A stretch of DNA of 64,000 nucleotides from Hirundichthys speculiger (taxonomy: Eukaryota; Chordata; Actinopteri; Beloniformes; Exocoetidae), in the NCBI GenBank assembly GCA_018398805.1, contig JAGFBZ010002117.1, positions 172,001 through 236,000 of the forward strand. The letters are read 5' to 3'. The notes beneath the pieces were generated by a model. The model was not told where the DNA came from and did not search any database. It saw only the letters and a program-made list of their open reading frames with translations. Below are positions 1 to 63,429 of this stretch, piece after piece; the first letter of the stretch is position 1, and the number at the start of each line of letters is the position of its first letter. A program made the translations under genes and the position numbers.

Positions 1-59
1 TATCAGAAATGACGCATCCTTGCAGGCCTCCCTGCAGCTGGACCTCGGCATGGGTCTGG

Positions 60-540
60 GATAGCCAGCCTGGAGGAGGCCAGGACCCAGCTGCAACGAA
101 GCCCGGCTGCTGAGCTAAGCTTCATCCTTCGACCCGTCCAGGCCGGCCCAACAAAACGTACCGCGGCTCCCAGTCATGAAAGGGTGGTGCGCCCTCTTCG
201 GGTCTGGGTTGAGGCGTCGAGGTCTTGTTGATGTGTGAAGGAAGAACGGAGTGGGAGATCGATAAGGTGGACCGCTGCTCCTTCTGAGTAGCGACGGAAA
301 TGGGTTTCCTCCTCAGGATGGCTGGGCTCGCCCTCTGAGATGGATCTCGGAGTAGAGTTGGCGCTCCTCCACATGGAGAGGAGCCAGTTGAGACGGTTTG
401 GGCATCTGGTTTGCATTCCTTCTGGAGACCTGGAAGGCGTGTTGGGTACGTCTAACCAGACGGAGGCCCGGGGCAGACCCGGGACATGCCAGAGGGATCA
501 GTGGACTCACTGTTGGAGCCAGACTCTAGTGGTCAGTCGA
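60..540 (+). mobile_element. LINE 3'-region relic
   Basis: Around 375-500 the + strand can be translated, with interruptions, as SQLRRFGHLVCIPSGDLEG followed by RGRPGT and RDQW. This resembles the tail of fish non-LTR retrotransposon reverse-transcriptase ORFs (a SQLRWFGHL...RGRPRTRWRD pattern). No intact ORF or element ends are visible. The LINE clade cannot be fixed from this fragment. Confidence 0.5.
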
Positions 541-1232
541 GGAACTCCAACTAAGCTTTCTTCTTTGTTGAATTTGGAAGATGGGATGTGGCCCCTTGCA
601 AACTACGCACGACTTTCAGGGCGGGACTTGTAGAAATAAACATTTCTGACCGGTTTAAAATTTCCATCATCTCTGTCACAAAACGTTTAAATTTATATGA
701 CAGTACTGTAAGTCAATGGATTCTCAGACACACATATAAAAATGCCTACATCCCATATAAAATGTGTGAAATTAACAGAGAATGTGTGCAGAAACTTTTC
801 TGCAGAATCTTTTAGCTCCTCGAAAGTTGTTTTGCTGAAAGATGCTTTGGCTGAAACGGGCTTATTGTTGCTTCGGCTCGTAGACTGGAACACGAAGAGC
901 GAGGGTTTTATTTGAATTCACCAGTGACGCATTTAAAATGCCTTTGAAAAAGAGAAGCACTTACAGCGAGCTGCGGAGTGATAAACCTCTGCAAGCCTCA
1001 CCACACTTACCTTTAACCCACACACCTCTGGCTGCTGAAGTGCATCTTTATCAGGACATCTGGTGAATTTAAAGCAGGCGTGTTATGACTCCTCTTCAAA
1101 TGTTGATACAACTTCCATGCGGCTGGAGTTTCCAAAGTCTGTCTACAACGTGGTCTGGTTAAAAATCCGCAGGGTTGCGTTGCAGAAGCTCATCTTTCAG
1201 TCGTGTCTTCATCGCTCTGATCCGAGCAGGCG
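541..1232. other. Non-coding, nothing recognised
   Basis: No credible exon, RNA gene or repeat boundary was seen. Short open stretches lack family motifs and paired splice sites. Confidence 0.5.
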
Positions 1233-1240
1233 GTGCTAAG

Positions 1241-2258
1241 TAGGGATGCAACGGTACTCAGTAAAATACGGTACGGTTCGGTACGACCTGCACGGGACGC
1301 GTTTATGTCCCGCGGTATTTATGTTCCAATAACTTTGCATTTGACTTGCACGTGAGCGTGCATGCCTTTTAGGCAACAGGCCGCCACTGCATGTCAACGT
1401 CCACTCGCCTCCGCTCACTCACAGTGACCAGCCGATCACACTTTGGCTGGTTGGCTGCAGCTCATAGATGCAGAAAAAAAAAAAAAAAAAAAACAAGCAG
1501 GTATGGCCAGCTGTAGTGGAGAAATTGAGAAAAACTTTTTTTAATCACCAGTGTGGGAGCATTTTGGTTTTGCTGTTGAATCCACCGGCGATGGAGTGAA
1601 AACAGTTAACAGTTAACAGAACGCAATCTTCCACCTCCCTAAACCCGGATCTTACCTGCGTAAGATCCAGTTGTTACCAGCTGTGCGTCTTGGCGCAGCT
1701 GATGTGCTTTTTAAAATACTGCAGAACTAATCATTGGATGTGCATTTAAAGATCACGAACAATTAATGTTCCTGTCCCTCCTCGACCACCAACAGTTTCA
1801 GACATATTGGAAATAAATTTCCACATCCAACCTTTTCCATCTTGACACCAGAGACAAAGATCTCCTTGGTTTCCTCCACAGCAAACATCTGGATGAGATC
1901 ACAGCTGTACAGACTGACGTATCTGGCCGTGACTATTCCCACATCCACCACAACTGCTGACCAGACATCCTCTGACCTCAAGAGAATAAAAACGTATGAC
2001 AGTAATACGGTGATGTGTAATCGAGAGGTAGAGCCGTTTGTGCGTGTACACATGTGACCAGGTGGACGCACGTTTATGCCATTTGGACGCGCTCTTGTAC
2101 GCGCCGACATGCGAGTTGCGCTTTCCGCACTCGGTATCTTGCGATCGCGGGTTTAGGGTAGCGGGTGGTCTGAAACTGTACCGAATCCGTACCGAATCCG
2201 TGGCACAAAAACCGCAGTACGGACCGTACCGTGAGCCACCTGTACCGTTGCACCCCTA
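1241..2258. mobile_element. hAT-type DNA transposon, non-autonomous, 8-bp TSD
   Basis: The left end reads TAGGGATGCAACGGTAC and the right end GTACCGTTGCACCCCTA, so the termini are inverted repeats. The element is flanked by an exact 8-bp direct duplication GTGCTAAG at 1233-1240 and 2259-2266. An 8-bp duplication and TAGGGRTG termini are typical of hAT elements. No transposase frame survives. The interior contains a piece related to the Harbinger-like element at 48.9-50.4 kb. Confidence 0.8.
1790..2165 (-). mobile_element. Fragment related to the 48.9-50.4 kb Harbinger-like element
   Basis: This stretch is the reverse complement of sequence at about 49040-49530, with gaps. Shared landmarks include GGTTTCCTCCACAGCAAACA here against its complement there, the GTGACCAGGTGGACGC-like segment, and the GGGTTTAGGGTAGCGGGT motif. 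It sits wholly inside the hAT copy at 1241-2258, so it was either nested there and truncated, or captured before the hAT moved. Confidence 0.55.
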
Positions 2259-2379
2259 GTGCTAAGGGGGGGTGGAGTCAGGTCATTTTACTCTGATTTG
2301 GGTCTGTGATGTCACATTACCCTGAAAATCTGAATAACAAATTTTCAGATGCAGACCACCCCAACAAACTGACCCGTTA

Positions 2380-2807
2380 TGTTGCAGTCTTTCACCAAAG
2401 CTTGTGTTTTTGGACCTGCTGAAAACGAGGTATTTAATCTCTTTTTCATCGTAGCTTGGTTGACCGTTGTGGCACTAACTGCCGGCGTTATGGTTGTCGG
2501 CTCAGATAATGGAATGAATAAATATTTTAACTGCATCAGAAGAACATCGTTCCGGTCATTCTTCGGTGTCATTTTTCAATGTCCTGTGTGCTATCACCAC
2601 TTTCCGCCCTGCTGACATTACGATACCTATGTTACAAGCTACATATTCACGTGAGACACAGTCGCGAGTCGCTCACAGACTTGAATGAGGCTGATATTAC
2701 ATATGCCGGTAATCGACCGCGATAATGAGATTAAGTCAAACATAAACGGTAACCGTTATCACGTGAAAGTTTACCGCGCTTTAATACCGCTAACCGTTCC
2801 ATCCCTA
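2380..2807. mobile_element. Probable hAT remnant, right end only
   Basis: The stretch ends with AACCGTTCCATCCCTA, the reverse of a TAGGGATGGAACGGTT-type hAT terminus. It is preceded by purine/pyrimidine-balanced GGTAACCGTTATCACG-like sequence common in such elements. No matching left end or target duplication was found, so the limits are approximate. Confidence 0.35.
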
Positions 2808-3301
2808 GTCCAACAACGAGCTGCAGCTGGGCTGGAGATCACCCCTGCATGCTCGTTCAACACCTCAAATACATTTTTCATTTGACAGACATCTTCACTG
2901 AAACGCTCTCGTCTCGTTTATGTAGAACATGACCTGCGTTGCATTTCTTTGTCAGACATAATTCACGCCGGTGAGGGGATTTGACGTTTTTCAGCGGAGG
3001 TGTTTGCTTGTTTTCCAGTTCATTGTGTTTTCTTCTGCGCTGGAAACCGCCGTTCTCAAACAGGAGAGGTGATGTCTTCTCACAGGCCGGAGTAAAATTG
3101 ATAACATTACCAGTGACTGCGTTCCATTCAGGTGCGTGCGCTCCAGGGCGGCGCTATTGCGCCCACCGGCTCATTGTTGATGGCCTGCAGGGACACGGGA
3201 TGGAAGGCAGCCATTGTTCGAGTTCTCTGATGTTGTTGTTGTTGCTTTCCTGCTATGGCTGCTCTGTAAACTCATCTATGTTTTTTAGGGAGTTAATGCA
3301 C

Positions 3302-3332
<31 letters not shown>

Positions 3333-3974
3333 CCTCTCATCAAGGACGATGGCACGTTTTTATTTTCTGCCGTGTGTTTCATTAAGGTTCTGTTCTGCTC
3401 AGGTGCTCCGGTGAGACAAAGACAGACAGTTTGGCTCATCGTAGCAGGAAGAGCACTGTGCAAAAAAATCAGTTTTATTCCATTTAGATAAACCAGCAAA
3501 CATCCTTTTCCTCATTATCATTTTTGTCCATATGTCACCGACAATGTTTATGTTTCTCACTTCCCCTGAAATATGCTTCTTTTTCTTTCCCTTCACTGTT
3601 TTGCCTTCAGCTTCTCTTCTCTTCAACCAAATCCCGCTCCTGTTTTCTTTCCACTTATCCCCCCTACCTCCGTGCTTCTCTCTGAATTCCTTTCGACATG
3701 AATTATTAACAAACGAGATAAATTCGGAATTACCGCGACAAAGACAAACATTTAGCATCTCTCTCTCCCTCTAGGTCTGCCTGAGTCTGGCGGGCCAGGT
3801 GTGCTGTCGTCTGTGGGGTAGTCTTAGGTGGCGGCCAATCCGGTTGCAGGTGGGATTAAACAGGGATTAAGCGTGTTTCTCCGTGAAAGCAGACAGACGG
3901 ACTAGCACTAATCTGACTTTAGCCGTGCACTGAAAAACAGCAGGCTTGAGCAATCCTACTCTTCCGCGAATGCC
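2808..3974. other. Non-coding; poly-T at 3301-3327
   Basis: There is no gene-like signal. A 27-base T run at about 3301-3327 and a pyrimidine-rich stretch at 3580-3680 are the only compositional features. An A-rich tail on the minus strand could mark an old retroposon, but no body was recognised. Confidence 0.45.
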
Positions 3975-4180
3975 CAATGTGCTTGTGTGTTCATGGGTGT
4001 GTGTGTTCTTATGTTTCCACCTTTGTGGGAACCAAATGTCCTGTGAATGCAAAAAACGTGAGAGAATAAAAGTGTTGCGTGGGTCCTGCTGTCTACAGGG
4101 GTTTAGTTGAGGATTAGGGTTTAGGGGTTAAGGCTCAGTGAGGATTAGGGTTCAGGTCAGGTTTTACAGTTATAGCAAAA
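3975..4180. repeat. Degenerate TTAGGGTTTAGGGG-bearing repeat
   Basis: A GTGTGTGTTCTTATG-type segment is followed by loosely repeated GGATTAGGGTTTAGGGGTTA and GGATTAGGGTTCAGG. The arrangement resembles an interspersed repeat common in fish introns rather than a telomeric array, because the TTAGGG units are irregular and few. Confidence 0.3.
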
Positions 4181-4429
4181 CAGCGAAACATGCAGCAGTG
4201 CAAGGGTCCTATAAGCAAGTTGAAGCAGCAACACTTGCTTCCAAAGTAACACGTGGATTACTATTTTGTTATTCTAAAACATGATTATGTATTGAAAAAT
4301 TCTATTACATTATATTATCGTTGTGTGTTAAAGACACTCTATGTAGTAATTTCAGATCTGACCACATGATGGCATATGCACTCACCACCTACTTCATCAG
4401 CTCCACCTCTCTAGTTCTTGGTTGGACGT

Positions 4430-4812
4430 CCTTTTGTCTTCAGAACCACCTTCATTCTTGGTGTCATAGACTCAACCAGATGCTAGAAACTTTCCTCAGA
4501 GGTTCTGGTCCAGTTGACATGACAGCATCTCCAGCTGCTGCTCATCCATGATGAGAACCTTCAGTTCCTCCACATCCCAAAGCTGCTCTACTGGACTCAG
4601 ATCTGATGACTGTGGAGGACACTGGAGGACAGTGGACGCATTGTTCCAGAAACCAGTTTGAGATGATCATGGTGCTGGAAGTATCCATCAGAAGATGGTC
4701 CACTGTGGTCAAAAAGGGATGGAGATGGTCAGCAACAATCCTCAGGTAGGCTGTGGTGTTTCAACCATGATCAGCTGGTACTGACAACATCTCCTCCACA
4801 CCATCACACCAC
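4430..4812 (-). mobile_element. Tc1/mariner-like transposon relic
   Basis: Read on the minus strand, about 4540-4595 gives QLWDVEELKVLIMDEQ, preceded by a degraded SPDLSPVE-like segment. This is the catalytic-Glu region typical of Tc1 transposases. The same family occurs in the opposite orientation at 25381-25617. The relic stops exactly where the 21-bp minisatellite starts. Confidence 0.55.
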
Positions 4813-7800
4813 ATGAGTGGCGATACTGCCGGCATGAGTGGCGATACTACCATCATGAGTGGCGATACTGCCGTCATGAGTGGCGATACTACGGTCATGA
4901 GTGGGGATACAGCGGTCATTAGTGGCGATACTACGGTCATGAGTGGCGATACTACAGTCATGAGTGGCGATACTACGGTCATGAGAGGCGATACTACGGT
5001 CATGAGTGGCGATACTGCGGTCATTAGTGGCGATACTACGGTCATGAGTGGCGATACTACGGTCATGAGTGGCGATACTGCCGTCATGAGAGGCGATACT
5101 ACAGTCATGAGTGGCGATACTACCGTCACGAGTGGCGATACTGCCGTCATGAGTGGCGATACTGCCGTCATGAGTGGCGATACTACGGTCATGAGTGGCG
5201 ATACTGCCGTCATGAGTGGCGATACTACGGTCATGAGTGGCGATACTGCGGTCATTAGTGGTGATACTGCGGTCATGAGTGGCGATACTACCGTCATGAG
5301 TGGCGATACTGCCGTCATGAGTGGCGATACTACGGTCATGAGTGGGGATACTACGGTCATGAGTGGCGATACTACGGTCCTGAGTGGCGATACTACAGTC
5401 ATGAGTGGCGATACTGCGGTCATGAGTGGCGATACTGCCGTTATGAGTGGCGATACTTCGGTCATGAGTGGCGATACTGCCATCATGAGTGGCGATACTG
5501 CTGTCAAGAGTGGTGATACTTCGGTCATGAGTGGCGATACTGCCGTCATGACAGGCGATACTACAGTCATGAGTGGCGATACGGTGGTCATGAGTGGCGA
5601 TACTGCCGTCAAGAGTGGCGATACTTCGGTCATGAGTGGCGATACTACGGTCATGAGTGGCGATACTGCCTTCATGAGAGGCGATACTACAGTCATGAGT
5701 GGCGATACGGTGGTCATGAGTGGCGATACTGCCGTCAAGAGTGGCGATACTTCGGTCATGAGTGGCGATACTGCCGTCATGAGTGGCGATACTTTGGTCA
5801 TGAGTGGCAATACTACGGTCATGAGTGGCGATAATATGATCATGAGTGGCGATACTACGGTCATGAGTGGCGATTCTGCCGTCATGAGTGGCGATACTAC
5901 GGTCATGAGTGGCGATACTGCCGTTATTAGTGGCGATACTGCGGTCATTAGTGACGATACTACGGTCATGAGTGGCGATACTGCCGTCATGAGTGGCGAT
6001 ACTTCGGTCATGAGTGGCGATACGGCCGTCATGAGTGGCGATACTGCCGTCAAGAGTGGCGATACTTCGGTCATGAGTGGCGATACTACCGTCATGAGTG
6101 GTGATACTACGGTCATGAGTGGGGATACTGCCATCATGAGTGGCGATACTTCGGTCATGAGTGGCGATACGGCCGTCATGAGTGGCGATACTGCCGTCAA
6201 GAGTGGCGATACTTCGGTCATGAGTGGCGATACTACCGTCATGAGTGGGGATACTGCTGTCAAGAGTGGTGATACTTCGGTCATGAGTGGCGATACTGCC
6301 GTCATGACAGGCGATACTACAGTCATGAGTGGCGATACGGTGGTCATGAGTGGCGATACTGCCGTCAAGAGTGGCGATACTTCGGTCATGAGTGGCGATA
6401 CTACGGTCATGAGTGGCGATACTGCCTTCATGAGAGGCGATACTACAGTCATGAGTGGCGATACGGTGGTCATGAGTGGCGATACTGCCGTCAAGAGTGG
6501 CGATACTTCGGTCATGAGTGGCGATACTGCCGTCATGAGTGGCGATACTTTGGTCATGAGTGGCAATACTACGGTCATGAGTGGCGATAATATGATCATG
6601 AGTGGCGATACTACGGTCATGAGTGGCGATTCTGCCGTCATGACTGGCGATACTACGGTCATGAGTGGCGATACTGCCGTTATTAGTGGCGATACTGCGG
6701 TCATTAGTGACGATACTACGGTCATGAGTGGCGATACTGCCGTCATGAGTGGCGATACTTCGGTCATGAGTGGCGATACGGCCGTCATGAGTGGCGATAC
6801 TGCCGTCAAGAGTGCCGATACTTCGGTCATGAGTGGCGATACTACCGTCATGAGTGGGGATACTGCTGTCATGAGTGGTGATACCACGGTCATGAGTGGG
6901 GATACTGCCATCATGAGTGGCGATACTACAGTCATGAGTGGCGATACGGTGGTCATGAGTGGCGATACTGCCGTCAAGAGTGGCGATACTTCGGTCATGA
7001 GTGGCGATACTGCCGTCATGAGTGGCGATACTTTGGTCATGAGTGGCAATACTACGGTCATGAGTGGCGATAATATGATCATGAGTGGCGATACTACGGT
7101 CATGAGTGGCGATTCTGCCGTCATGAGTGGCGATACTACGGTCATGAGTGGCGATACTGCCGTTATTAGTGGCGATACTGCGGTCATTAGTGACGATACT
7201 ACGGTCATGAGTGGCGATACTGCCGTCATGAGTGGCGATACTTCGGTCATGAGTGGCGATACGGCCGTCATGAGTGGCGATACTGCCGTCAAGAGTGGCG
7301 ATACTTCGGTCATGAGTGGCGATACTACCGTCATGAGTGGGGATACTGCTGTCATGAGTGGTGATACTACGGTCATGAGTGGGGATACTGCCATCATGAG
7401 TGGCGATACTACAGTCATGAGTGGCGATACTACCGTCATGAGTGGCGATACTGCCGTCATGAGTGGCGATACTGCCGTCATGAGTGGCGATACTACCGTC
7501 ATGAGTGGCGATACTGCCGTCATGAGTGGCGATACTACGGTCATGAGTGGCGAGACTGCGGTCATTAGTGGCGATACTACGGTCATGAGTGGCGATACTA
7601 CGGTCATGAGTGGCGATACTGCCGTCATGAGTGGCGATACTACGGTCATGAGTGGCAATACTACGGTCATGAGTGGCGATACTACGGTCATGAGAAGGGA
7701 TACTGCCATCATGAGTGGCGATACTACAGTCATGAGTGGCGATACTACCGTCATGAGTGGCGATACTGCCGTCATGAGTGGCGATACTACGGTCATGAGT

Positions 7801-10800
7801 GGCGATACTACGGTCATGAGTGGCGATACTACGGTCATGAGTGGCGATACTACAGTCATGAGTGGCGATACTGCGGTCATGAGTGGCGATACTGCCGTTA
7901 TTAGTGGCGATACTTCGGTCATGAGTGGCGATACTGCCATCATGAGTGGCGATACTGCTGTCAAGCGTGGTGATACTTCGGTCATGACAGGCGATACTAC
8001 AGTCATGAGTGGCGATACGGTGGTCATGAGTGGCGATACTGCCGTCATGAGTGGCGATACTTCGGTCATGAGTGGCAATACTGCCGTCATGAGTGGCGAT
8101 ACTGCCGTCAAGAGTGGCGATACTTCGGTCATGAGTGGCGATACTGCCGTCATGAGTGGCGATACTTTGGTCATGAGTGGCAATACTACGGTCATGAGTG
8201 GCGATACTATGATCATGAGTGGCGATACTACGGTCATGAGTGGCGATTCTGCCGTCATGAGTGGCGATACTACGGTCATGAGTGGCGATACTGCCGTTAT
8301 TAGTGGCGATACTGCGGTCATTAGTGACGATACTACGGTCATGAGTGGCGATACTGCCGTCATGAGTGGCGATACTTCGGTCATGAGTGGCGATACGGCC
8401 GTCATGAGTGGCGATACTGCCGTCAAGAGTGGCGATACTTCGGTTATGAGTGGCGATACTGTCGTCATGAGTGGCGATACTTCGGTCATGAGTGGCGATA
8501 CAACCGTCATGAGTGGGGATACTGCTGTCATGAGTGGTGATACTACGGTCATGAGTCGGGATACTGCCATCATGAGTGGCGATACTACAGTCATAAGTGG
8601 CGATACTGCGGTCATGAGTGGCAATACTGCCGTCATGAGTGGCGATACTGCCGTCAAGAGTGGCGATACTTCGGTCATGAGTGGCGATACTGCCGTCAAG
8701 AGTGGCGATACTTCGGTCATGAGTGGCGATACTGCCGTCATGAGTGGCGATACTTTGGTCATGAGTGGCATTATACTACGGTCATGAGTGGCGATACTGC
8801 CGATCATGAGTGGCGATACTGAGTGGTATTAGTGGCGATACTGTGAGTCATGAGTGGCGATGGCGATACTACGGCGATCATGAGTGGCATCTGCCGTCAT
8901 GAGTGGCGATACTACGGTCATGAGTGGCGATACTTATGCCGTTATTAGTGGCGATACTGCGGTCATTAGTGGCGATACTACGGTCATGAGTGGCGATACT
9001 GCCGTCATGAGTGGCGATACTTCGGTCATGAGTGGCGATACGGCCGTCATGAGTGGCGATACTGCCGTCAAGAGTGGCGATACTTCGGTTATGAGTGGCG
9101 ATACTGTCGTCATGAGTGGCGATACTTCGGTCATGAGTGGCGATACAACCGTCATGAGTGGGGATACTGCTGTCATGAGTGGTGATACTACGGTCATGAG
9201 TCGGGATACTGCCATCATGAGTGGCGATACTACAGTCATAAGTGGCGATACTGCGGTCATGAGTGGCGATACTGCCGTCATGAGTGGCGATACTGCCGTC
9301 ATGAGTGGCGATACTTCGGTCATGAGTGGCGACACTGCCGTCATGAGTGGCGATACTGCTGTCAAGAGTGGTGATTCTTCGGTCATGAGTGGCGATACTG
9401 CGGTTATTAGTGGCGATACTACGGTCATGAGTGGTGATACTACGGTCATGAGTGGCGATACTGCCGACATGAGAGGCGATACTACAGTCATGAGTGGCGA
9501 TACTACCGTTATGAGTGGCGATACTGCCGTCATGAGTGGCGATACTGCCGTCATGAGTGGCGATACTACCGTCATGAGTGGCAATACTGCCGTCATGAGT
9601 GGCGATACTACGGTCATGAGTGGCAAAACTGCGGTCATTAGTGGCGATACTACGGTCATGAGTGGGGATACTGCCATCATGAGTGGCGATACTACAGTCA
9701 TAAGTGGCGATACTGCGGTCATGAGTGGCGATACTGCCGCCATGAGTGGCGATACTGCCGTCATGAGTGGCTATACTTCGGTCATGAGTGGCGACACTGC
9801 CGTGCGATACTGCTGTCAAGAGTGGCGATTCTTCGGTCATGAGTGGCGATACTGCGTCATTAGAGTGGCGATACTTCGGTCATGAGTGGCGATACTGCGG
9901 TCATTAGTGGCGATACTACGGTCATGAGTGGCGATACTACGGCCGTCATGAGTGGCGATACTGTCATGACGATACTGTCATGAGTGGCGATACTGCCGTC
10001 ATGAGTGGCGATACTACGTCATGAGTGGCGATACTACCGTATGAGTGGCGATACTGCCGTCATGAGTGGCGATACTACCGTCATGAGTGGCGATACTGCC
10101 GTCATGAGTGGCGATACTACGGTCATGAGTGGCGATACTGCGGTCATTAGTGGCGATACTACGGTCATGAGTGGCGATACTACCGTCATGAGTGGCGATA
10201 CTGCCGTCATGAGTGGCGATACTACGGTCATGAGTGGCAATACTACGGTCATGAGTGGCGATACTACGGTCATGAGTGGTGATACTACGGTCATGAGTGG
10301 CGATACTTCGGTCATGAGTGGCGATACTACGATCATGTGTGGCGATACTGCCGTCATGAGTGGCGATACTTCGGTCATGAGTGGCGATACTGCCGTCATG
10401 AGTGGCGATACTGCTGTCAAGAGTGGTGATTCTTCGGTCATGAGTGGCGATACTGCCATCATGAGTGGCGATACTGCTGTCAAGAGTGGTGATACTTCGG
10501 TCATGAGTGGCAATACTGCCGTCATGAGAGGCGATACTACAGTCATGAGTGGCAATACGGTGGTCATGAGTGGCGATACTGCCTTCATGAGTGGCGATAC
10601 TTCGGTCATGAGTGGCAATACTGCCGTCATGAGTGGCGATACTGCCGTCAAGAGTGGCGATACTTCGGTCAAGAGTGGCGATACTGCTGTCATGAGTGGC
10701 GATACTTCGGTCATGAGTGGCAATACTACGGTCATGAGTGGCGATACTATGATCATGCGTGGCGATACTGCCGTCATGAGTGGCGATACTACGGTCACGA

Positions 10801-13800
10801 GTGGCGATACTGCCATTATTAGTGGCGATACTGCCGTCATTAGTGACGATACTACGGTCATGAGTGGCGATACTGCCTTCATGAGTGGCGATACTACGGT
10901 CACGAGTGGCGATACTGCCATTATTAGTGGCGATACTGCCGTCATTAGTGACGATACTACGGTCATGAGTGGCGATACTGCCGTCATGAGTGGCGATACT
11001 ACGGTCACGAGTGGCGATACTGCCATTATTAGTGGCGATACTGCCGTCAAGAGTGGCGATACTTCGGTCATGAGTGGCGATACTGCCGTCATGAGTGGCG
11101 ATACGTCGGTCATGAGTGGCGATACGTCGGTCATGAGTGGCGATACTACCGTCATGAGTGGGATACTGGTCTGTCATGAGTGGTGATACTACGGTCATGA
11201 GTGGGATACTGCCGTCATGAGTGGCGATACTACGGTCATGAGTGGCGATACTGCGGTCATGAGTGGCGATACTGCCGTCATGAGTGGCGATACTGGTCGA
11301 GTGGCGATCTGCGTCATGAGTGGCGATACTGCTGTCAAGAGTGGTGATTCTTCGGTCATGAGTGGCGATACTGCCATCATGAGAGGCGATACTACAGTCA
11401 TGAGTGACGATACTGCCGTCATGAGTGGCGATACTGCCGTCATGAGTGGCGATGTGGCGATACTTCGGTCATGAGTGGCGATACTGCTGTCATGAGTGGC
11501 GATACTTCGGTCATGAGTGGCGATACTACGATCATGTGTGGCGATACTGCCGTCATGAGTGGCGATACTTCGGTCATGAGTGGCGATACTGCCGTCATAG
11601 TGGCGCGATACTGCTGGTCAAGAGTGGTGATTCTTCGGTCATGAGTGGCGATACTGCCATCATGAGTGGCGATACTGCTGTCAAGAGTGGTGATACTTCG
11701 GTCATGAGTGGCAATACTGCCGTCATGAGAGGCGATACTACAGTCATGAGTGGCAATACGGTGGTCATGAGTGGCGATACTGCCTTCATGAGTGGCGATA
11801 CTTCGGTCATGAGTGGCAATACTGCCGTCATGAGTGGCGATACTGCCGTCAAGAGTGGCGATACTTCGGTCAAGAGTGGCGATACTGCTGTCATGAGTGG
11901 CGATACTTCGGTCATGAGTGGCGATACTACGGTCATGAGTGGCGATACTGGTCATAGGTCGATGGAGTGGCGGATACTACGGTCACGAGTGGCGATACTG
12001 CCATTAGTGGCGATACCGTCTCATGAGTGACGATACTATGGTCATGAGTGGCGATACTGCCTTCATGGTGGCGATACTACGGTCACGAGTGGCGATACTG
12101 CCATTATTAGTGGCGATACTGCCGTCATTAGTGACGATACTACGGTCATGAGTGGCGATACTGCCGTCATGAGTGGCGATACTACGGTCACGAGTGGCGA
12201 TACTGCCATTATTAGTGGCGATACTGCCGTCAAGAGTGGCGATACTTCGGTCATGAGTGGCGATACTGCCGTCATGAGTGGCGATACGTCGGTCATGAGT
12301 GGCGATACGTCGGTCATGAGTGGCGATACTACCGTCATGAGTGGGGATACTGCTGTCATGAGTGGTGATACTACGGTCATGAGTGGGGATACTGCCGTCA
12401 TGAGTGGCGATACTACAGTCATGAGTGGCGATACTGCGGTCATGAGTGGCGATACTGCCGTCATGAGTGGCGATACTTCGGTCATGAGTGGCGATACTGC
12501 CGTCATGAGTGGCGATACTGCTGTCAAGAGTGGTGATTCTTCGGTCATGAGTGGCGATACTGCCATCATGAGAGGCGATACTACAGTCATGAGTGGCGAT
12601 ACTGTGGTCATGAGTGGCGATACTTCGGTCATGAGTGACGATACTGCCGTCATGAGTGGCGATACTGCCGTCAAGAGTGGCGATACTTCGGTCATGAGTG
12701 GCGATACTGCTGTCATGAGTGGCGATACTTCGGTCATGAGTGGCGATACTACGATCATGAGTGGCGATACTGCCGTCATGAGTGGCGATACTTCGGTCAT
12801 GAGTGGCGATACTGCCGTCTTGAGTGGCGATACTGCTGTCAAGAGTGGTGATTCTTCGGTCATGAGTGGCGATACTGCCATCATGAGAGGCGATACTACA
12901 GTCATGAGTGGCGATACTGTGGTCATGAGTGGCGATACTTCGGTCATGAGTGACGATACTGCCGTCATGAGTGGCGATACTGCCGTCAAGAGTGGCAATA
13001 CTTCGGTCATGAGTGGCGATACTGCCGTCATGAGTGGCGATACTTCGGTCATGAGTGGCGATACTACGATCATGAGTGGCGATACTGCCGTTATTAGTGG
13101 CGATACTGCGGTCATTAGTGGCGATACTACGGTCATGAGTGGCGATACTGCCGTCATTAGTGGCGATACTTCGGTCATGAGTGGCGATACGGCCGTCATG
13201 AGTGGCGATACTGCCGTCAAGAGTGGCGATACTTCGGTCATGAGTGGCGAGACTGACGTCATGAGTGGCGATACTTCGGTCATGAGTGGCGATACTACTG
13301 TCAAGAGTGGCGATACTTCGGTCATGAGTGGCAATACTGCCGTCATGAGTGGCGATACTTCGGTCATGAGTGGCGATACTACCGTCATGAGTGGCGATAC
13401 TGCTGTCATGAGTGGTGATACAAAGTCATGAATGGGGATACTACGGTCATGAGTGGTGATACTACAGTCATGAGTGGGGATACTGCTGTCATGAGTGGTG
13501 ATACAAGGTCATGAGTCGGGATACTACGGTCATGAGTGGTGATACTACAGTCATGAGTGGTGATACTACGGTCATGAGTGGTGATACTACAGTCATGAGT
13601 GGCGATACTACGGTCATGAGTGGTGATACTACGGTCATGAGTGGCGGATACTCATGAGTGGGTCACTACGGTCATGAGTGGTGATACTACGGTCATGAGT
13701 GGTGATACTACAGTCATGAGTGGCGATACTACGGTCATGAGTGGTGATACTACGGTCATGAGTGGCGATACTACGGTCATGAGTGGGGATACTACGGTCA

Positions 13801-13866
13801 TAATTGGGGATACTACGGTCATGAGTGGTGATACTACGGTCATGAGTGGCGATACTGCCATCATGA
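4813..13866. repeat. Giant 21-bp minisatellite (~430 unit lengths)
   Basis: The array is built from ATGAGTGGCGATACTACGGTC-type units (20 of the 21 bases: ATGAGTGGCGATACTACGGT). The main variants have ACT-GCC, ACT-TCG, AAGAGT, ATTAGT or GGTGAT. From 4813 to about 8770 no unit is out of register, so one + frame encodes a repeating MSGDTAV-like heptad and a minus frame encodes LMTVVSP-like heptads. After 8770 there are breaks in register near 8771-8886, 9803-10040, 11160-11310, 11605-11620, 11950-12070 and beyond 13425. No splice sites, conserved flanks or gene context support translation, so it is annotated as a satellite-like array and not a gene. Confidence 0.97.
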
Positions 13867-15556
13867 TTGACAACAGACAAGCAGTTGACAGTTTTTATTC
13901 TTACTGATCTGTACACACGAAACAACAATCACTGCCTGGGCTAAGTGTGTTTTTCTTAATGACATGCTGCTCTTCAACTCCTGACCTCCGGGGCTGCTGG
14001 TCTGCTGGTCTGTTTCCCTGCCACAAAGAAATGGGTTGTTAACAGACTTGCACAGACCTGGATGACAAGCTGATGGTCGGGAAACTTCCAGAACCTGCAG
14101 GGCAACGACCCGCGAGGACCGGCGCTGTCTCCTGGCACTTTTCTCACACATTTGAGACCAAACAACAACATAAAGGTCAGAAATATGAGATTTCTTGTCT
14201 GCAGATGAACGTGCCTGTTACACTCATGATACATGAACATGAGAAGAAAAGGAAAAATTCCCTTGTGTGTGTTTTTTTTTTAAATGAATTCTTCTATTTG
14301 AAAAATCCCAACTATTGGAATTTCATGATCAACTCTTGTAACTATGTACTTCAGTTTTTTTTTTTTTGTGGTTTTCTTTTCTCAGTCATATCTTACTTCT
14401 GTCGTAAAGGTTTCTTGTCGTCTTGTCGTCCTTCTTTGAAGTTGTGCTTCAGAATTTCAGTTTTCATTCTTTGCATTTCTCAGAAAGAAATGCAAAGAAT
14501 GAAAGAAAGAAATCCAAATTCTTTATACCCTTTTGGGTTTTTGAACTGTCTTAGATTTTGTCTGATGAATATTCAGAAATATTCAGAGAACGAGTCTCTA
14601 GTCTGCGGGGGACACTTATTTGGAGAAAAGCAAAATTACAAGTGACCACGGGCAGAAAAGGACATTATTACCCATAATCATAGACAAACATTTGCTTCGA
14701 CATTTATTTACGTGCAGCCCTCTCTGATTATCAGCACGCCGGCGGTCTTAACACACGTTCATCCGCTGGTTTCTGCAAGGACGTGCGGCATCTGGTGTTT
14801 GATTTCCGTGCATTTAATGCTCTCCAGTTGTCACGTATCTGACATGTCTGACGGCTTTAGGAGGGTAGCCGATGACAGCAGAGTGAGCGGGGAGCAGAGG
14901 AGGACAAACGGGCTGCTCACTGGAGTGCTCGGAAGGCAAAGGATTTAGGCTGCAGATGGATATCAAAGTAAAACGGCTCTGTCAACATGAATGGGAATCA
15001 AAATTGTACAATACGGGAGCTTTGATCTTTAGCTTTTCAGCACTTCTGATCAAATGTAGATCGCTTCCCCTTTTTATCGGGGAGAAGAGTCGCAACCCTT
15101 TTTTAAAGCACGGGTCTCATTTTGTTCCACTTCACCTGGTGCGAGCACAGTGACCTGTTTGCAGCTGACCTCCATATCAGCTGAACACACACAAGAACAG
15201 ACCCGACGCTGCTGCTGCTGCGTTTACGTGATGCTTTCACTGTCTGTACACGCTAAAAAAATTTACACAGCATACAAACATGTCTAGCATCTGATTAATG
15301 CTGAAGGTAACCTGTAATGACAGAGGTTGCTGTTTGCAGAAGCCTGGAGGCCTCCTGCACTTTGGCTGCGTTTGTGGCGTGACATGTAAGACATATATTT
15401 CTGTTTTTACGTTGATAGATGACATAACTGAAGTGACGCCGCTGTTGAAGAAGCATAATGGCTTTGAGATGCTCAGGAATGTTTCTCACCCAAAAATGTT
15501 GTCTTGAAAAACAGGTGGGGGGGGGGTCCTACAAGTGGAAACATATCATTATGTAT
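13867..15556. other. Non-coding, nothing recognised
   Basis: There are short T-runs near 14270 and 14355, and a small perfect inverted repeat near 14465-14505 (CATTCTTTGCATTTCT with its complement). No exon, RNA gene or element boundary was identified. Confidence 0.45.
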
Positions 15557-16615
15557 TAGGGCGGGGCAAGTTAACGTGTTATTATCGTGTTAACTCATTA
15601 ATTTATTAACGCCGACATTTATTTTATCGCGTCTGTTACTGGCTGCTGCGGAACCGGAAGAGAATTCGCAGGTAAACATGCGAAAAAGCTAAAACAGACA
15701 TGGAGAACGGTAAAAATCAGTGAACTTTACAGTTTAGGTAGTAACTCAGGTAGCAATATTAACAATTCTGTCTGAAAAAATATTCTGGACAACAACAAAA
15801 CTTTGGCTTCATTCCTCCATGTTCCATCAGATCTGCTCCATGTGTTCACTGTCCTGCTGTTCTCTAGCTGGTTACTGCAGTGCAGCTCCATCTAGTGGCA
15901 CAGATGTGTAACGACAATAGAAAGTTCAGTCCTCAATTATAAAACAAATTCAGTTCTGTGGCCCGTTTTTTAATTCCAGATTTTTGATCCAAGTCTAAAA
16001 TTGAAATATTAAAAAAACAGGCATTCCTTTTTTGTGTTAGATTGAAAAACGTAATAAGATGTCACTTTTTATTTATTTTTTTAAATTTTTGATTGACAGT
16101 TGAAAATGAATGATAGACTGATTGGTAAAGTTACTGAACTTTAACATGGACATTTTCATTTTAAAGTTCTCCTAGATGGAGGATTCAGTAGAAACAAGGT
16201 TATTTATAACCACTGCCAAGTTGAACTCCCCGTTAAAAGTTTCTGCTGTTACCTCAGAAATTACCTGTTTTAATGTTCTGATTGTGCTGAGACACAATCA
16301 TTTTGTTGTATTTTGTTTGTAGACTTTTTTTATTTTATAAAAACAGGATGACATTAATGACCTGGCAGTGGCAATAAGCTTTATTTCATTTTACATTTTT
16401 TAAGATGAGATTTACACTAAATATGTGTTACTGACAAGTGCTAATGTTAAAAGTGTTAAGTTATGACACTTTAGTTCATATGGCAGCAGAACATTTTAAT
16501 TAAAGTGCATTTTACACTACTTTTGAATACATTATTTGATTTTGCGTATACAATGCGATTAATCGTGATTAATCAGGGAAATAATGCGATTAATCGCGAT
16601 TAAAAATTTTATTTA
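15557..16615. mobile_element. AT-rich DNA-transposon copy, TTAACGCGTTAA family
   Basis: It begins TAGGGCGGGGCAAGTTAACG with repeated GTTATTATCGTGTTAACTC, and ends with GCGATTAATCGCGATTAAAA. The internal sequence recurs in reverse orientation at 58579-59110 and in direct orientation at 52430-52655. It is a multi-copy interspersed element, probably non-autonomous. The right terminus is eroded, so no target duplication could be read. Confidence 0.55.
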
Positions 16616-17667
16616 GCATTTTTATTTAGCATTTATTTAGCATCTGCAACATCCTTTTTGAAAATTTCACACAAAGACGCTGCTCTCTTTGGGAGAACAG
16701 TTGATATCACATTTTCCTCTGATTCATCAACCTCGGGAGTCACATTTATCAACGCTTCACTTGAACTTTGAACGAAAATGGGTTTGATCCGTTCTGATCT
16801 GTCCACCCCAGATCTAAAAAAGCTGTGCTCATTTTTTTCACCTCTGTGCACCCAGGGGTTCGGTCACTTCGAGGCATCTGAAATATTAAAATGAGATTTG
16901 TCATTCGTGGACGAGAAGAAGAACAAAGAAAGACGTGTCGAAATCCAGAACGATCTGCATCCGAGGACGCGTTCTGTGACGAACGCTTGACATTTGGGTA
17001 AAAACTGTAAATGTGCGCCTCAGGTTACCGCGTGGCTGCACACAGACAGCCTCTCTGCTGCAGCAGCTGTGTGAGGTAACGTCTGTGCTGCAACAACAGC
17101 ACATCCACCTCTTTCCCTCAACCTTCCTCAACCTCATTATCTTCCTTTTCTGTCAATCAGTCTGTCTGACTGTCTGCAGCCACCCACCCCCTGCCCTCCC
17201 CACCTCCACTCACCTCTCTCCTCCATCTTCCCTCATCTTTGGCTGGATGCAGTAGACTATTAAAAATGTCCTCTGTTGAAATGAGAGAGAGCTGTAAACA
17301 CAGAGAACAGAGGAGTGTGAGAGCGTCAAGCTCGGTCACACGGAAAAGGGAGGAAAGACAACAGAGGTGAGACAAAGGGACCTGGAACTGATCTTATTTT
17401 CATCCAGGACCCAACAATAAACAAATACGCTGGAGAAAAGAAAAGTAGGTGAACCCTCGGGATTAATGGCAGGTCCAACCCAGCCTGCTTCGCCAGATGT
17501 TTCCTGAAGTGAGTCAGCTCTTTGGCTGATGTTGGGCTTGTTTGATTACTGCAGGCCACCTGAAACAGCGTCTCTGAGTTTCTGTCAGTATCTGGACCCG
17601 ACTCCCCACGTCCAGCGGACTGAGCGGATTTGCCACCATCCCGTCGGTGAACGTCGCAACTCCTCAG
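16616..17667. other. Non-coding, nothing recognised
   Basis: The region contains ATTTAGCATTTTT-type short repeats at its start and a pyrimidine-rich stretch near 17100-17240. No supported gene or RNA was found. Confidence 0.4.
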
Positions 17668-18432
17668 TAGAGGTCTTCACGGGTCCATGAAAGTGGACCC
17701 GTGAAAATTCTACCCGAAACCGACCCGACCCGAGCTGTTATTATAAGTTCGGGAGTCTGAACCTGAATGGACCAGCAATATTTGGACCCGGAACCGAACC
17801 CGACCCGAGTCTTAAGTTTCCGACCACGAACTGAACCGAGTTACCCGAATAGAACCGAGACAATCCAGCCCATAGTTGCTCATGTTAAAGTTGTCTAGCG
17901 TTGAATAAAACTTGATTTTCTTACCTAAAGTTGTCTTCTTCTACCGGTTCAGTTGCTACATAGGCTACGTGATGTAAACAACAATAAATCCACGTCGTTA
18001 TTTTCTTTGTGGATACAGATGCTATTGGTAGCAACTGCTAACGCTAATAGCCTACACCGGTCAGTACATGTGGTGAATATGTTCTCTCATCCAGCGTTGT
18101 CATGTTGGTGATCCGTTATGCTTTACAGCTGCCGGGAAAACCGCTAATAACACGCTACGGCAACATGATTGTTTCATGACAAATGCGCCACGTTAATTAA
18201 TAACCATTTAACTGCCCCGAGTCCTGACATTAGCTGCCACCACCAATATCTTTACCTCTCTGGAGTAAACGTGGACCCAGCCTGTCAGAGAGCACCGACC
18301 GGACCCGAGACTAACTGTACCGATTCCAACCCGAACCCGGAAGTCACGTCTTTTGAATAGGACCCGAGACCCGATTCGGTTCGGGTCAGAACCTCGGGTT
18401 TTAGGGTTGTCGGGTTGCTCCGAAGGCCTCTA
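17668..18432. mobile_element. hAT-type element with 8-bp TSD
   Basis: The termini are TAGAGGTCTTCACGG on the left and CCGAAGGCCTCTA on the right, an imperfect inverted pair. The flanking octamers are CTCCTCAG (17660-17667) and CTCTTCAG (18433-18440), one mismatch apart. Ends are rich in GGGTCCGGGTCCGAAACCC-like words (ACCCGACCCGA near 17725). No transposase frame remains. Confidence 0.75.
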
Positions 18433-18440
18433 CTCTTCAG

Positions 18441-19794
18441 GCCTTGGGTCATTTCGGCTGAACCTTTACCCTTATCCTGTACGATGTTTGTGCAAACCCC
18501 TTGATGAAGCGATCCAGATCCAAACCCCTTGATGAAGAGATCCAGGCCCGGAGGCAACAGGCCCAGGTCATGACGCTCCCTCTGCCGTGCTTCTGCGCCA
18601 GGCAGAGTGCTGAGGACTCCGCCCAAACAGTTAAACCTTTCTGCTGCGCTGGTTCACAGAACAGTTTCCTTGCAGGCTTGCAGGCAGCCGGCGTGTGGAT
18701 TACCAGGGTGAGACTATAACAGTTTTATTCAGCTTCAGTTTTACTTGATTGTTTACTTCTAAAGTTAGACTTACAACAATCTTTAATAGCCATATGAGAT
18801 CTCTATCTTGGTCCTTCAGTCCACAGAAAGGAAAGTCAGGTTCTCTGAGCTGGTGCGTAGCCCCTCTACAACGTCTGCTAAATCAATCCAGCTCTTCTCG
18901 TCACTATTTCTCTGCAGTTTATTTCAAGGAAGCTAAGTTCGTCTAGGTTCACGTTTCTTGAAGAAGGCAGAATAATCAACTTGATTAATTATCAGGTACG
19001 CAGCCAGATAGCATTAGACGTTGGGCTAACATTAAAAAGCTTCAAAATCAGAAAAACACTGAATGGCTTTCGTCTGGCGTTCGATGTTCAACCTTCATTC
19101 AGATGTTAAAAACAATCTTGTCTTGTTGAGTTTTGTAACTTTTATCGCCTCCTGTTCCTTTTGTCACTGCGGTGTTAAAGCTTTGTATTCATTTCAGACA
19201 ACGCTGCAGCTTTTCTCCATACAGGAGGCCACAGTCGAGGATGTGTGGATGTGTGAGTTCAGAGAATTAAAATGTAAAAACTTTTCATCTGTACGGCCAC
19301 CGTTCTGCAGTGGAATCTCACTTTAACGACACGAAATCAAAGGCAGCACACGGAAAGCTGGCGAGACAAATTAAAGGAGTGAAGAAAAAAAAAAGTTGTC
19401 TCCCGCACACACGCACACAATATGTTTTATATAAATCCTGAAAATTAAAACCAGCAGGCGGGCTGTTAGAATAGACGCCTGCATTTCATTTGTGAGAGGA
19501 AACTTCACATAAGCGTTTTTTGTTTTTTTTAGGAGACATATTACACAATATGTTATCCATGGACACCGTCTGGAGGGCTATTTTGGACTCCGTGTCGGTG
19601 TGTGTGTTTGTGTGTGCGGTGGTAGTTGGGGGGGTGGATTTAATGATGTCATTGTATAATCAGTATAATCTGATTACTGTGTGACAGATTTGATGCTTCT
19701 CAATTTCCTGTCTGTGTTGCCATTTATTCCTTCAGAGAAAACTGAACATTCAGATGGTCTGACTGTCTGTCTACCTGTCCACCTGTCTGTCTGT
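18441..19794. other. Non-coding, nothing recognised
   Basis: An imperfect direct repeat occurs near 18500-18545 (CCAAACCCCTTGATGAAG with GCGATCCAGATCC). No gene or mobile-element boundary was recognised. A (CTGT)n run begins near 19770. Confidence 0.4.
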
Positions 19795-20150
19795 CTGTCT
19801 GTCCTGGAGGTCTGAGGTGTCCAGAGTGAAGATCAGTGGTCAGAGTCCAGTTCCCTGTGGTTCTCCTGAGCTGCTGACCACCTGCTCAGACACTCAACCG
19901 TTCAGTTTCTCCAGCTGTGGTCTGTTAGTCAGATAGTCAGTGGTCCAGGTGATGGTGGAGACATCCAGCTGTGTCTTCTGGAGGTTCTCTGGTAGTAAAG
20001 CTGCTGGATGGAGTTAAACTATCTGGAGAAACTGAAGAACATGATCCTCACAGAGCTGCTGCTTTGTCCAGTTGACTGGGTTCATCGAAGCAGCTGGATG
20101 ATGGCGTCTTCAACTCCAACCCCACGACCATCAGCAGTAGAGGGTGGCAA
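19795..20150 (-). mobile_element. Rex1-like LINE reverse-transcriptase relic
   Basis: On the minus strand, interrupted by stops and frame changes, one can read VRIMFFSFSR*FNSIQ followed further on by PQGTGL*PLIFTLDTSDLQD. These correspond to the VRIMFFDFSSAFNTIQ and PQGTVLSPFLFTLYTSD motifs of the Rex1/Babar reverse-transcriptase palm. It is clearly non-functional. Confidence 0.6.
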
Positions 20151-20177
20151 CATGTTGCTCTGTCTGCCTGTCTTTTT

Positions 20178-20206
20178 GATTTTATTTTATTTTATTTTAT
20201 TTTGTA
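20178..20206. repeat. (TTTTA)n microsatellite
   Basis: About five tandem ATTTT units follow a T-rich lead-in, directly after the LINE relic. Confidence 0.85.
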
Positions 20207-20210
20207 TAAA

Positions 20211-20735
20211 TTGGAAACATAAATGGTACATACTGTTGTGCGACTGAAGTGCAGATGTGCTTCACAGCATCTTTATCTAACACAGAGACAGTGGGGTCAC
20301 CTGTCCCCGCTCTCCTACCTGCTGCAGGTAAATTCTCCTCCAGGAACAAGAACGTGGCCCGAAACTGCTGCTGCACAAATGAAGTGAACCGAACTGAATA
20401 TTTAGATCAAATTTTGCCCCTAAATTAAATTAGAAAAGATAAAAGGATGACGAACGACAGCGGGTTACGGCGGAACAAACATGGGCGTTATCAACAAAAG
20501 ACACGGGAAATGAGGCGGAACGACGCACAAAAGGGCAGCCAATTATTTGAAAATGGGCCGAGAGGGGAAACAAACGGTGCGAGATGTTTGTGCAATGATT
20601 CATTCAGAACACAAATGAGAAAAAGAAGAGATAAAGAACGTGGATAAAGAAGTGGATTAGGACTGCAGACTGTACAAGAAGAAACCTCTGTGATGTCACC
20701 CATTTACTCTCACCATGACCCAACCTGTCCAAACT
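20211..20735. other. Non-coding, nothing recognised
   Basis: No exon, RNA gene or repeat boundary was seen. Confidence 0.4.
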
Positions 20736-21520
20736 ATGGAGCCCCGTTTGGGTCATAATTTCAATGAATTAATGAGTCTATTATTATGAAATACAGGCGT
20801 TTATTATTATGAAATATTTCCCATTATTATGGATAATGGTTTCGATTTTTCATAAGAATGAGCTTTTACATAATAATGGCTTTGTTTTTCATAAGAATGA
20901 TTTGTGTGTCAATCACAGCAGAGAGGGCGGAGCCATTTATGTGATTGGCTGCTCTTTCATTCAGGCATAAGCAACAGAACAGTGAATATCAATAGTGGGC
21001 GAGAGGTGCAATGTATATACTCCAGGCCAGTAGGTGGCAGAATGCACCTCAGTTTACGGTTAAAAGTTAACATCGACTAAGAAACGTCAAGGTTTCCCGT
21101 AGCTCAGTCCAAGCTGCCATAGCTACAATCGGACTAGGAGCGCACCTTGATGACGCCACGGCCCGCTGCTAACGGGACCTCACGGCCCAAACTAGTCGAT
21201 GTCAGAGCGTAAAATGGAGAAGGATGAGCCAATGAGCGTGCAGGTCAACCACTGGTCCCGCCCACTGGCAAAATGTCATTATTATGTAAAAGCTCATTCT
21301 TATTAAAAAGGAAGCCATTATGTAAAAACTCATTCTTAGATTAAAAAAAAAAAAAAGCCATTCTGAAATAAACTATTATGCATTAAACTAAGATTAAATA
21401 ATGATAAAATATAAAAATATATTTCATAATAATTACATTTTTTTTCATAATAATGAGAAATATTTCATAATTAATACACATATATTTCATTATAATGAGA
21501 AACATTTCATAATAATGGAT
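20736..21520. mobile_element. Unclassified MITE, copy 1 (right end lost)
   Basis: The left end TATGGAGCCCCGTTTGGGTC and the interior match the copy at 43069-43869 over most of their length. Shared parts include the GGCGGAGCC segment, the GACTAGGAGCGCACCTTGAT segment, and runs of TTATTATGAAATA and CATAATAATG. The right inverted terminus is missing: it breaks off after ATAATGGATACGTATT. Confidence 0.65.
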
Positions 21521-21672
21521 ACGTATTGCCTACAGACTTCCCACCCACGCAAATTGGGCCTGAAACTGTTTAGTCTGAAGGAACCCAGTTTCTGCCTTTT
21601 GACCAAAGCATTTTTCACATGTTTCGTTTAGAAAGAATCATGTTAACATGTGAAACAAGGACATAACATGTC
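21521..21672. other. Short spacer, nothing recognised
   Basis: Unique-looking sequence between two mobile elements. Confidence 0.4.
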
Positions 21673-22043
21673 TAGGGATGTGAAAAAAAAAATCGATTTG
21701 GCAATATATCGTGATTTTCGGCTGCCCAATATAATATCGATTTTTCAGCTCCTAATATTGATTTTTTTTGAATTTTTAAAAAACACTAATAAACAATAAA
21801 TTGGTTGTTTTGAAGCAAATAGTTTTGACTCAATTTGTCCTCTGAATGATCAATATCAGTGATTCCCAAAGTGTGGGTCGCGGCCCTCTGGTGGGCCGTC
21901 CCAGTACTGCAGGTGGGCCGTGAGAGATCATTAAAATTAAACAAATATTTTTTTTAATCCTCAATCTTTTTTAAATATGTTTTTAATTTCTGTAAAATAT
22001 TAATGACATGATTTAAAAACATTAAGAAGTAACAAACCAGTTA

Positions 22044-22253
22044 CGTGGACAAAATTGTTGGTACCCCTCAGTTAAAGAAGGAAAAACCCACAATTCTCAC
22101 TGAAATCACTTGAAACTTACAAAAGTAACAATAAATAAAAATTTATTGAAAATCAAATAATCAAAATCAGCCATCACTTTTGAATTGTTGATTAACATAA
22201 TTATTTAAAAAAACAAACTAATGAAATAGGGCTGGACAAAAATGATGGTACCC
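22044..22253 (+). repeat. Left ITR of the Tc1 element
   Basis: It reads from CGTGGACAAAATTG to GGACAAAAATGATGGTACCC and pairs with 23451-23660. The two direct repeats of the GGACAAAA core are about 190 bp apart. Confidence 0.9.
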
Positions 22254-22258
22254 ATAAC

Positions 22259-23282
<1,024 letters not shown>

Positions 23283-23450
23283 GTTCAGTGTGGTACACAC
23301 CTTTTCACCAAACAGCAAAGTGACTACTTGTCTGCCTTTTAAATAGGCAGACTGACTGATTATGAGTTTGGAAACACCTGTGATGTCAATTAAAGGACAC
23401 ACCTGAGTTAATCATGTCACTCTGGTCAAATAGTTTTCAATCTTTTATAG

Positions 23451-30607: not shown

Positions 30608-30695
30608 ATGAGTGCTGATAACTCCGATGGGAACGTCTCCCTGCCTTTGCGGAATGTACTGAACTCCATCCAGTGTATCCGAGACCGAGTCAGAG
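30608..30695 (+). CDS. ccndbp1: ccndbp1 exon 1 (coding part)
   Basis: Encodes MSADNSDGNVSLPLRNVL and on to RDRVR. Donor GTAAAA follows GTCAGAG. Ends in phase 1. An in-frame GTG lies upstream at 30566 but the ATG at 30608 is preferred. Confidence 0.85.
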
Positions 30696-57000: not shown

Positions 57001-57015
57001 TTGAGAGCCACATCA

Positions 57016-57090
<75 letters not shown>

Positions 57091-63237: not shown

Positions 63238-63429
63238 GTGACTCTTCTCCTCCCCCGCTGTTTTTTTTTGTTAGCAGATGTCTCAGGTGTCTCAGGTGCA
63301 GTCATGTGACTGAAGGTAAACCCTCCCTACTTCTGTAGGAAACCTGAGTGAAGTGAGGTTAGTGGACATTGATCTGTGGGCTGAAATCACTTTTGTTAAC
63401 TTCTATGAGCAGTTGAGTCATGGGGCGTA

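Follow-up and report, generated by a model that had tools for sequence, protein, structure and literature searches.

A 9-kb minisatellite of a 21-bp unit in Hirundichthys speculiger, open on both strands and most likely noncoding

A stretch of 64,000 nucleotides from Hirundichthys speculiger (GenBank assembly GCA_018398805.1, contig JAGFBZ010002117.1, positions 172,001 to 236,000 of the forward strand; hereafter the window) carries near its left end a 9-kb tandem array of a 21-bp unit, which is most likely a genuine, locus-specific and noncoding minisatellite. We give a probability of roughly 0.87 to the fuller reading that the array is a noncoding, locus-specific minisatellite of the variable number tandem repeat (VNTR) type in a ray-finned fish, grown by block duplication. 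Minisatellites consist of head-to-tail repeats with a unit of tens of bases in arrays on the kilobase scale, and VNTRs are those in which the copy number differs between individuals. The data are one genome assembly, and searches of the minisatellite literature did not turn up this array, which is not proof of its being unpublished.

Tandem Repeats Finder (TRF) places the array on the plus strand at positions 4812 to 13866 of the window (9055 bp, consensus CATGAGTGGCGATACTGCGGT) with 431.2 copies, 82% matches and 2% indels, in good agreement with a preliminary description of this DNA, which had counted about 430 copies over 9 kb. The wraparound alignment to the unit divides the array into 432 units, the last of them partial, with 93 gap letters in 62 runs, and the unit pattern at up to two mismatches has 391 matches in the window, all within the array. 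All 62 indel runs lie at or past 8770 and are preceded by 188 clean units (4812 to 8769, plus strand), so that the perfect register claimed earlier for about 4 kb (4813-8770) is borne out by the alignment. The array is thus a head-to-tail repeat of a unit of tens of bases at kilobase scale, and its variant units are common to many copies via local duplication and repeated blocks. The same pattern has 394 forward and 6 reverse matches in the whole genome; the 9 matches outside the array compare with 32 (13 + 19) for a reversed-pattern control, and they are scattered rather than gathered into unit arrays at several loci as in a dispersed satellite. No second array of the unit was found genome-wide at up to two mismatches per unit, a threshold at which a more diverged array would be missed.

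The internal structure of the array points to growth by blocks. The 399 clean units belong to 76 types, 33 of which occur once, and blocks 12-26 units long are repeated at lags of 23, 30, 36, 54, 56, 57, 59, 77 and 113 units with an exact identity of 0.87-1.00, compared with a mean of 0.049 over lags 1-199. Counted as exact units, the blocks score 19 of 19 (lag 59), 25 of 26 (lag 36), 13 of 13 (lag 30) and 12 of 12 (lag 56). For example, block comparison shows that the block at 5505 to 6092 (plus strand) has a copy at +756 bp (25/26 exact) and partial copies at +1239 bp (19/19) and +2373 bp (16/17). CpG transitions account for 14 of the 69 single-step changes on a minimum spanning tree of the 76 unit types; CpG is found at 7.9 per 100 bp in the array and 3.2 in the rest of the window, with observed/expected ratios of 1.22 and 0.67, respectively. 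Probably a 21-bp seed multiplied next to where a dispersed repeat is broken off, the array then grew through duplication of blocks of about 12-26 units, as by unequal exchange, slippage or break repair, and point changes, many of them at CpG, accumulated and were copied along. We infer this mechanism of growth, and also that the array varies in length between individuals, is methylated at CpG in the germline and lacks a function.

The long open reading frames (ORFs) on both strands are a by-product of the 3 × 7 unit length and stop-poor codons. Both ORFs reported in the preliminary description exist to the base: the plus ORF of 1324 codons at 4813 to 8787, with the heptad MSGD(T/S)(A/T/S)V, and the minus ORF of 1348 codons at 4761 to 8807, with the heptad PLMTxVS. 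We judge neither to be a gene, on the ORF list together with selection and stop tests and, for the minus ORF, a protein search. The frame-by-frame stop count adds a second open minus frame with the heptad ATHDxSI (4812 to 8769). The earlier observation of a unit length divisible by three and of no stop in at least two frames is correct, and three frames (+MSGDTAV, −PLMTxVS and −ATHDxSI) are open over the first 3958 bp, the other three holding 28, 163 and 264 stops. Over the whole array, the 380 adjacent pairs of clean units contain no stop in +MSGDTAV, none in −ATHDxSI and one in −PLMTxVS. Among 20,000 shuffled versions of the consensus, 99.5% are open in one or more frames of both strands, as 21 is a multiple of three. 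When the 21 unit columns were permuted together, which keeps the variation and destroys the codons, both strands stayed open in 23% of 3000 trials for the first 188 units and in 7.5% of 2000 trials for all 399 clean units, which gives no support to the view that openness on both strands is remarkable. Class-matched random changes along the 69 steps would be expected to yield 0.31, 1.29 and 0.85 new stops in the three open frames, where 0, 1 and 0 were observed; in the closing frame +HEWRYCG, 8.1 stops are expected from 59 steps and 5 were observed. The frames stay open because their codons are rarely one change away from a stop and because the unit length is 3 × 7.

Selection on a protein is not evident either. 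Synonymous steps number 22 of 69 in +MSGDTAV (18.4 expected, P = 0.19), 24 in −PLMTxVS (21.6 expected, P = 0.30) and 17 in −ATHDxSI (16.2 expected, P = 0.46), and the synonymous excess is not significant in any of the six frames (P = 0.19-0.79; 0.26-0.79 without +MSGDTAV), with the limited power of 69 steps. This test drew on the 69 of 75 tree edges that carry a single change, setting aside the other 6 and all 33 indel-bearing units. Purifying selection acting on a single frame, as in a coding repeat, was not detected with these 69 steps, and coding selection is supported by neither the synonymous-step nor the stop-opportunity test, in line with the earlier argument against selection for a protein. 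Register was compared with that of other arrays by running TRF on 200 kb of further sequence from this genome (60 kb on the array's own contig) and keeping arrays with a unit of at least 9 bp, at least 5 copies and more than 150 bp. Six distinct arrays form this small and mixed control set; two (20 bp × 46 and 59 bp × 15) are free of indels and four are of low complexity with 5-15% indels. The 20-bp minisatellite (unit CTCGTTCCTCCATCTGTGGA) lies at about 144.7-145.6 kb of the contig, some 31 kb to the left of the array; its 46 copies are of 11 types and carry no indels. Lack of indels might by itself point to a frame, but a unit of 20 bp cannot keep one and stays indel-free all the same; the 59-bp array of 15 units has no indels either.

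The part of the array past 8770 raises the question of assembly quality. Clustered and nearly all private indels extend from 8770 to 13662 (wraparound alignment and twin-block comparison), with clusters at about 8770-8938, 9794-10041, 11162-11313, 11442-11453, 11599-11615, 11949-12068, 13255-13258, 13422, 13505 and 13647-13662. Among the 33 indel-bearing units there are 32 different forms, whereas 366 of the 399 clean units have forms that occur more than once. Because block duplication would have carried real mutations into the copies, most of the private indels are probably assembly or polishing noise. The error patches adjoin stretches identical to their twins: the region at about 8770-8890 is garbled relative to the twin block at about 8100-8592 and, beyond it, the two are identical except for an insertion near 8936 and one base, and 11489-11891 matches 10292-10691 exactly but for one patch of a few bases. 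These results, and the fact that exact block duplications could equally be assembly joins, lend some weight to the tentative view that the array is real but that its length and second half are products of assembly (collapsed, expanded or badly polished), a view that we hold to be rather unlikely and that would add to the minisatellite reading instead of replacing it. On the other side, the first 3.96 kb is indel-free and its commonest unit forms recur in later parts of the array, so that an array of several kilobases is likely, and a one-base deletion that looks alike near 13422 and 13505 may be real. The earlier worry about an assembly artefact therefore seems justified for most indel patches past 8770, and not for the clean first 4 kb, which is probably real.

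Several observations weigh against a noncoding array and deserve to be set beside those above. The core of the plus heptad is uniform, five of its residues being kept in 172-181 of 188 heptads of the plus ORF (S 178, G 181, D 180, T 181, V 172). The preliminary description had held that amino acids change freely, which is true of the A/T/S place, the most variable, and then of the M/K/I place (M in 156), and does not hold for these five. At least three frames stay open in only 4.7% of the 3000 column permutations of the first 188 units, which makes the array somewhat unusual; the selection test has limited power; and the 20-bp control is a modest one, being shorter and less varied (11 vs 76 types), with fewer chances for indels. 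The plus frame (1324 aa) also matches PF21300, the grass antifreeze beta roll, with 494 bits. For its first 210 residues, AlphaFold2 run without an alignment gives a best model with a predicted local distance difference test score (pLDDT) of 87.6 and a predicted template modelling score (pTM) of 0.80, in which five-residue strands recur every seven residues and which may be read as a beta-solenoid. Finally, similar heptads take up roughly 100 residues of a SET-like protein of the clam Mya arenaria (59% identity over 31% of a 350-aa query, E = 5e-21). These likenesses, together with the absence of stops in 380 clean pairs over 9 kb, would be expected if the plus frame were a young, perhaps de novo, gene for a heptad-repeat protein, whether a beta-solenoid, an ice-binding-like protein or a linker.

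Such a coding reading is nonetheless very improbable. In nine scrambled versions of a 140-aa piece, made by permuting its seven heptad columns, four match PF21300 at E 0.001 and three of the nine score above the cut-off; the best scramble reaches 72.7 bits and the real piece, which tops all ten, 75.2 bits. The PF21300 match thus shows no specificity for residue order, and we reject the antifreeze beta roll as non-specific; real and scrambled pieces also match assorted unrelated families, and the minus frame matches DUF948. The four remaining AlphaFold2 models have scores of 66.6, 64.4, 31.5 and 25.4, and Foldseek finds no match to the best model in the PDB at E ≤ 0.001 (best E 0.015 with a template modelling score of 0.20; 216 matches up to E 10). 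AlphaFold2 has reportedly produced beta-solenoids for repeats that are confident but unrealistic (PMC11795689). Here, a minus-frame piece is modelled as one long helix with a pTM of 0.29. In the protein search with the 350-aa plus query, the best 7997 candidates, those with most words in common, were scored, and the three matches (two Mya arenaria proteins and one unnamed protein with scattered SGDT words) include no fish protein; a 350-aa piece of the minus frame has no homologue at E 0.001 among the best 7999 candidates scored. The Mya arenaria SET-like protein repeats the similar heptad in its N-terminal part, and we take the match as probable convergence of a simple heptad. Residues ~25-125 of this protein carry SGDT heptads with an M/K alternation as in parts of the plus frame. 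Moreover, the plus frame extends upstream of the array by only 14 codons before a stop, and no significant selection was found. Less probable still is that this raw in-frame 9-kb heptad repeat is under, or open to, exaptation in the fish as a de novo protein of the SGDT type, either a beta-solenoid or a linker, with independent uptake of a similar heptad by the clam SET-like protein.

It is also conceivable, with similarly small probability, that the array acts as nucleic acid, through bidirectional transcription to double-stranded RNA or small RNA, or through a unit of two helical turns that sets the rotational phase of nucleosomes. The helical phasing proposed earlier finds a weak echo in the 10.5-bp peak of S/S dinucleotides (P = 0.02 in 500 permutations, uncorrected for the three tests made), with W/W nearly opposite in phase (0.83 pi apart), and the high CpG ratio of the array relative to the rest of the window would also suit a role of this kind. 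By contrast, the 10.5-bp periodicity is not significant for W/W (P = 0.15) or for TA/AA/TT (P = 0.46) in the same number of permutations. Folds of two 126-nt RNA pieces on both strands are no better than those of shuffles (z = −0.32, −0.55, −0.87 and −1.18), the array has no G-quadruplex motif and the window has no Rfam match at the gathering score. Structured RNA and G-quadruplexes thus gave no signal in these folds, the motif search or the Rfam scan.

The left edge of the array is the broken end of a dispersed repeat (4398 to 4812, minus strand), recognised by its matches to other copies in the genome and cut off where the array begins. From its sequence we take it to be Tc1-like; Pfam names neither the copy in the window nor two others. 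At least 39 other places in the genome match the last 113 bases of the repeat. Of eight copies read, two align along 417 bases and six along 140-416, and all eight continue past the break with sequence unrelated to the unit. The unit was sought in up to 400 bases before and 1100 bases after the break of each copy; the best match is 14-16 of 21, against 13-14 of 21 in shuffles of three of them, and we therefore reject a derivation of the unit from the adjoining repeat. None of the eight copies matches the right flank, whose first hundred bases match only their own locus (best 40 of 1078 candidates).

A six-frame Pfam scan of the surroundings gives no domain at E up to 0.05 for 1-4802 and only NapB, below cut-off, for 13867-22208, so that there is no domain above cut-off in the 4.8 kb to the left or the roughly 8.3 kb to the right. 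The 10 kb further left has one BED-finger match below cut-off (plus strand only), and no left-hand gene was found in these scans (six frames for 1-4802, plus strand only for the 10 kb beyond). Remains of a hAT transposase lie at 22.2-30.5 kb (plus-strand scan). Two overlapping minus ORFs at 22259-23411 resemble a Tc1-type transposase split over two frames; the first of them carries a DDE_3 domain. The nearest downstream gene found is ccndbp1 (cyclin-D1-binding protein 1), whose exons span 30608 to 44091 on the plus strand, the first starting 17 kb past the array; one exon has 80% identity to Xenentodon cancila and 78% to Cololabis saira (best of 179 matches), which would by itself place the fish probably close to Beloniformes. 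Within this span, minus ORFs at 39526-41885 resemble pieces of a LINE-type reverse transcriptase by eye, and the one that was scanned with Pfam has no significant match. Further right, Pfam detects Transglut_N at 55257-55760, below cut-off (18.8 of 27 bits), and Transglut_C at 62952-63335, above cut-off, the latter region having no PDB match by sequence. The order of ccndbp1 followed by transglutaminase-type matches (30608-44091, 55257-63338) is presumably like that of human CCNDBP1-EPB42-TGM5. TRF reports a 28-bp tandem repeat at 61288-61429 (5.1 copies, 94% matches), in the interval from Transglut_N to Transglut_C. A search with an 801-base piece found no phage relatives.

The array carries a caution for the annotation of ORFs. 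Without any detectable sign of a gene, a tandem repeat whose unit is 3n bases long can open both strands to overlapping ORFs that exceed 1,300 codons, reach a very strong domain-profile score and be confidently modelled as a repeat protein. Controls with scrambled heptads and stop opportunities expose such cases and could be used routinely in screens for ORFs or de novo genes.

Compared with known systems, the array resembles transposable-element-derived minisatellites, as a human survey describes them (PMC3389668), in that one of its edges is the broken end of a dispersed repeat; it differs from them in that, judging by the eight longer copies, this repeat did not supply its unit. With the grass antifreeze beta roll PF21300 it shares heptad periodicity and a profile score, which a scrambled heptad nearly equals, and no PDB fold matches at E 0.001. 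Exonic minisatellites reportedly exist, such as those in MUC2; the fish array is like them in its open frame through the array and unlike them in that no exon, leader or selection was found there. From noncoding vertebrate minisatellites and VNTRs it is set apart by a unit divisible by three with three stop-free frames in the first 4 kb, and it is like them in its unit size (tens of bases), its hundreds of copies arranged head to tail, common point variants, block duplications and a single locus.

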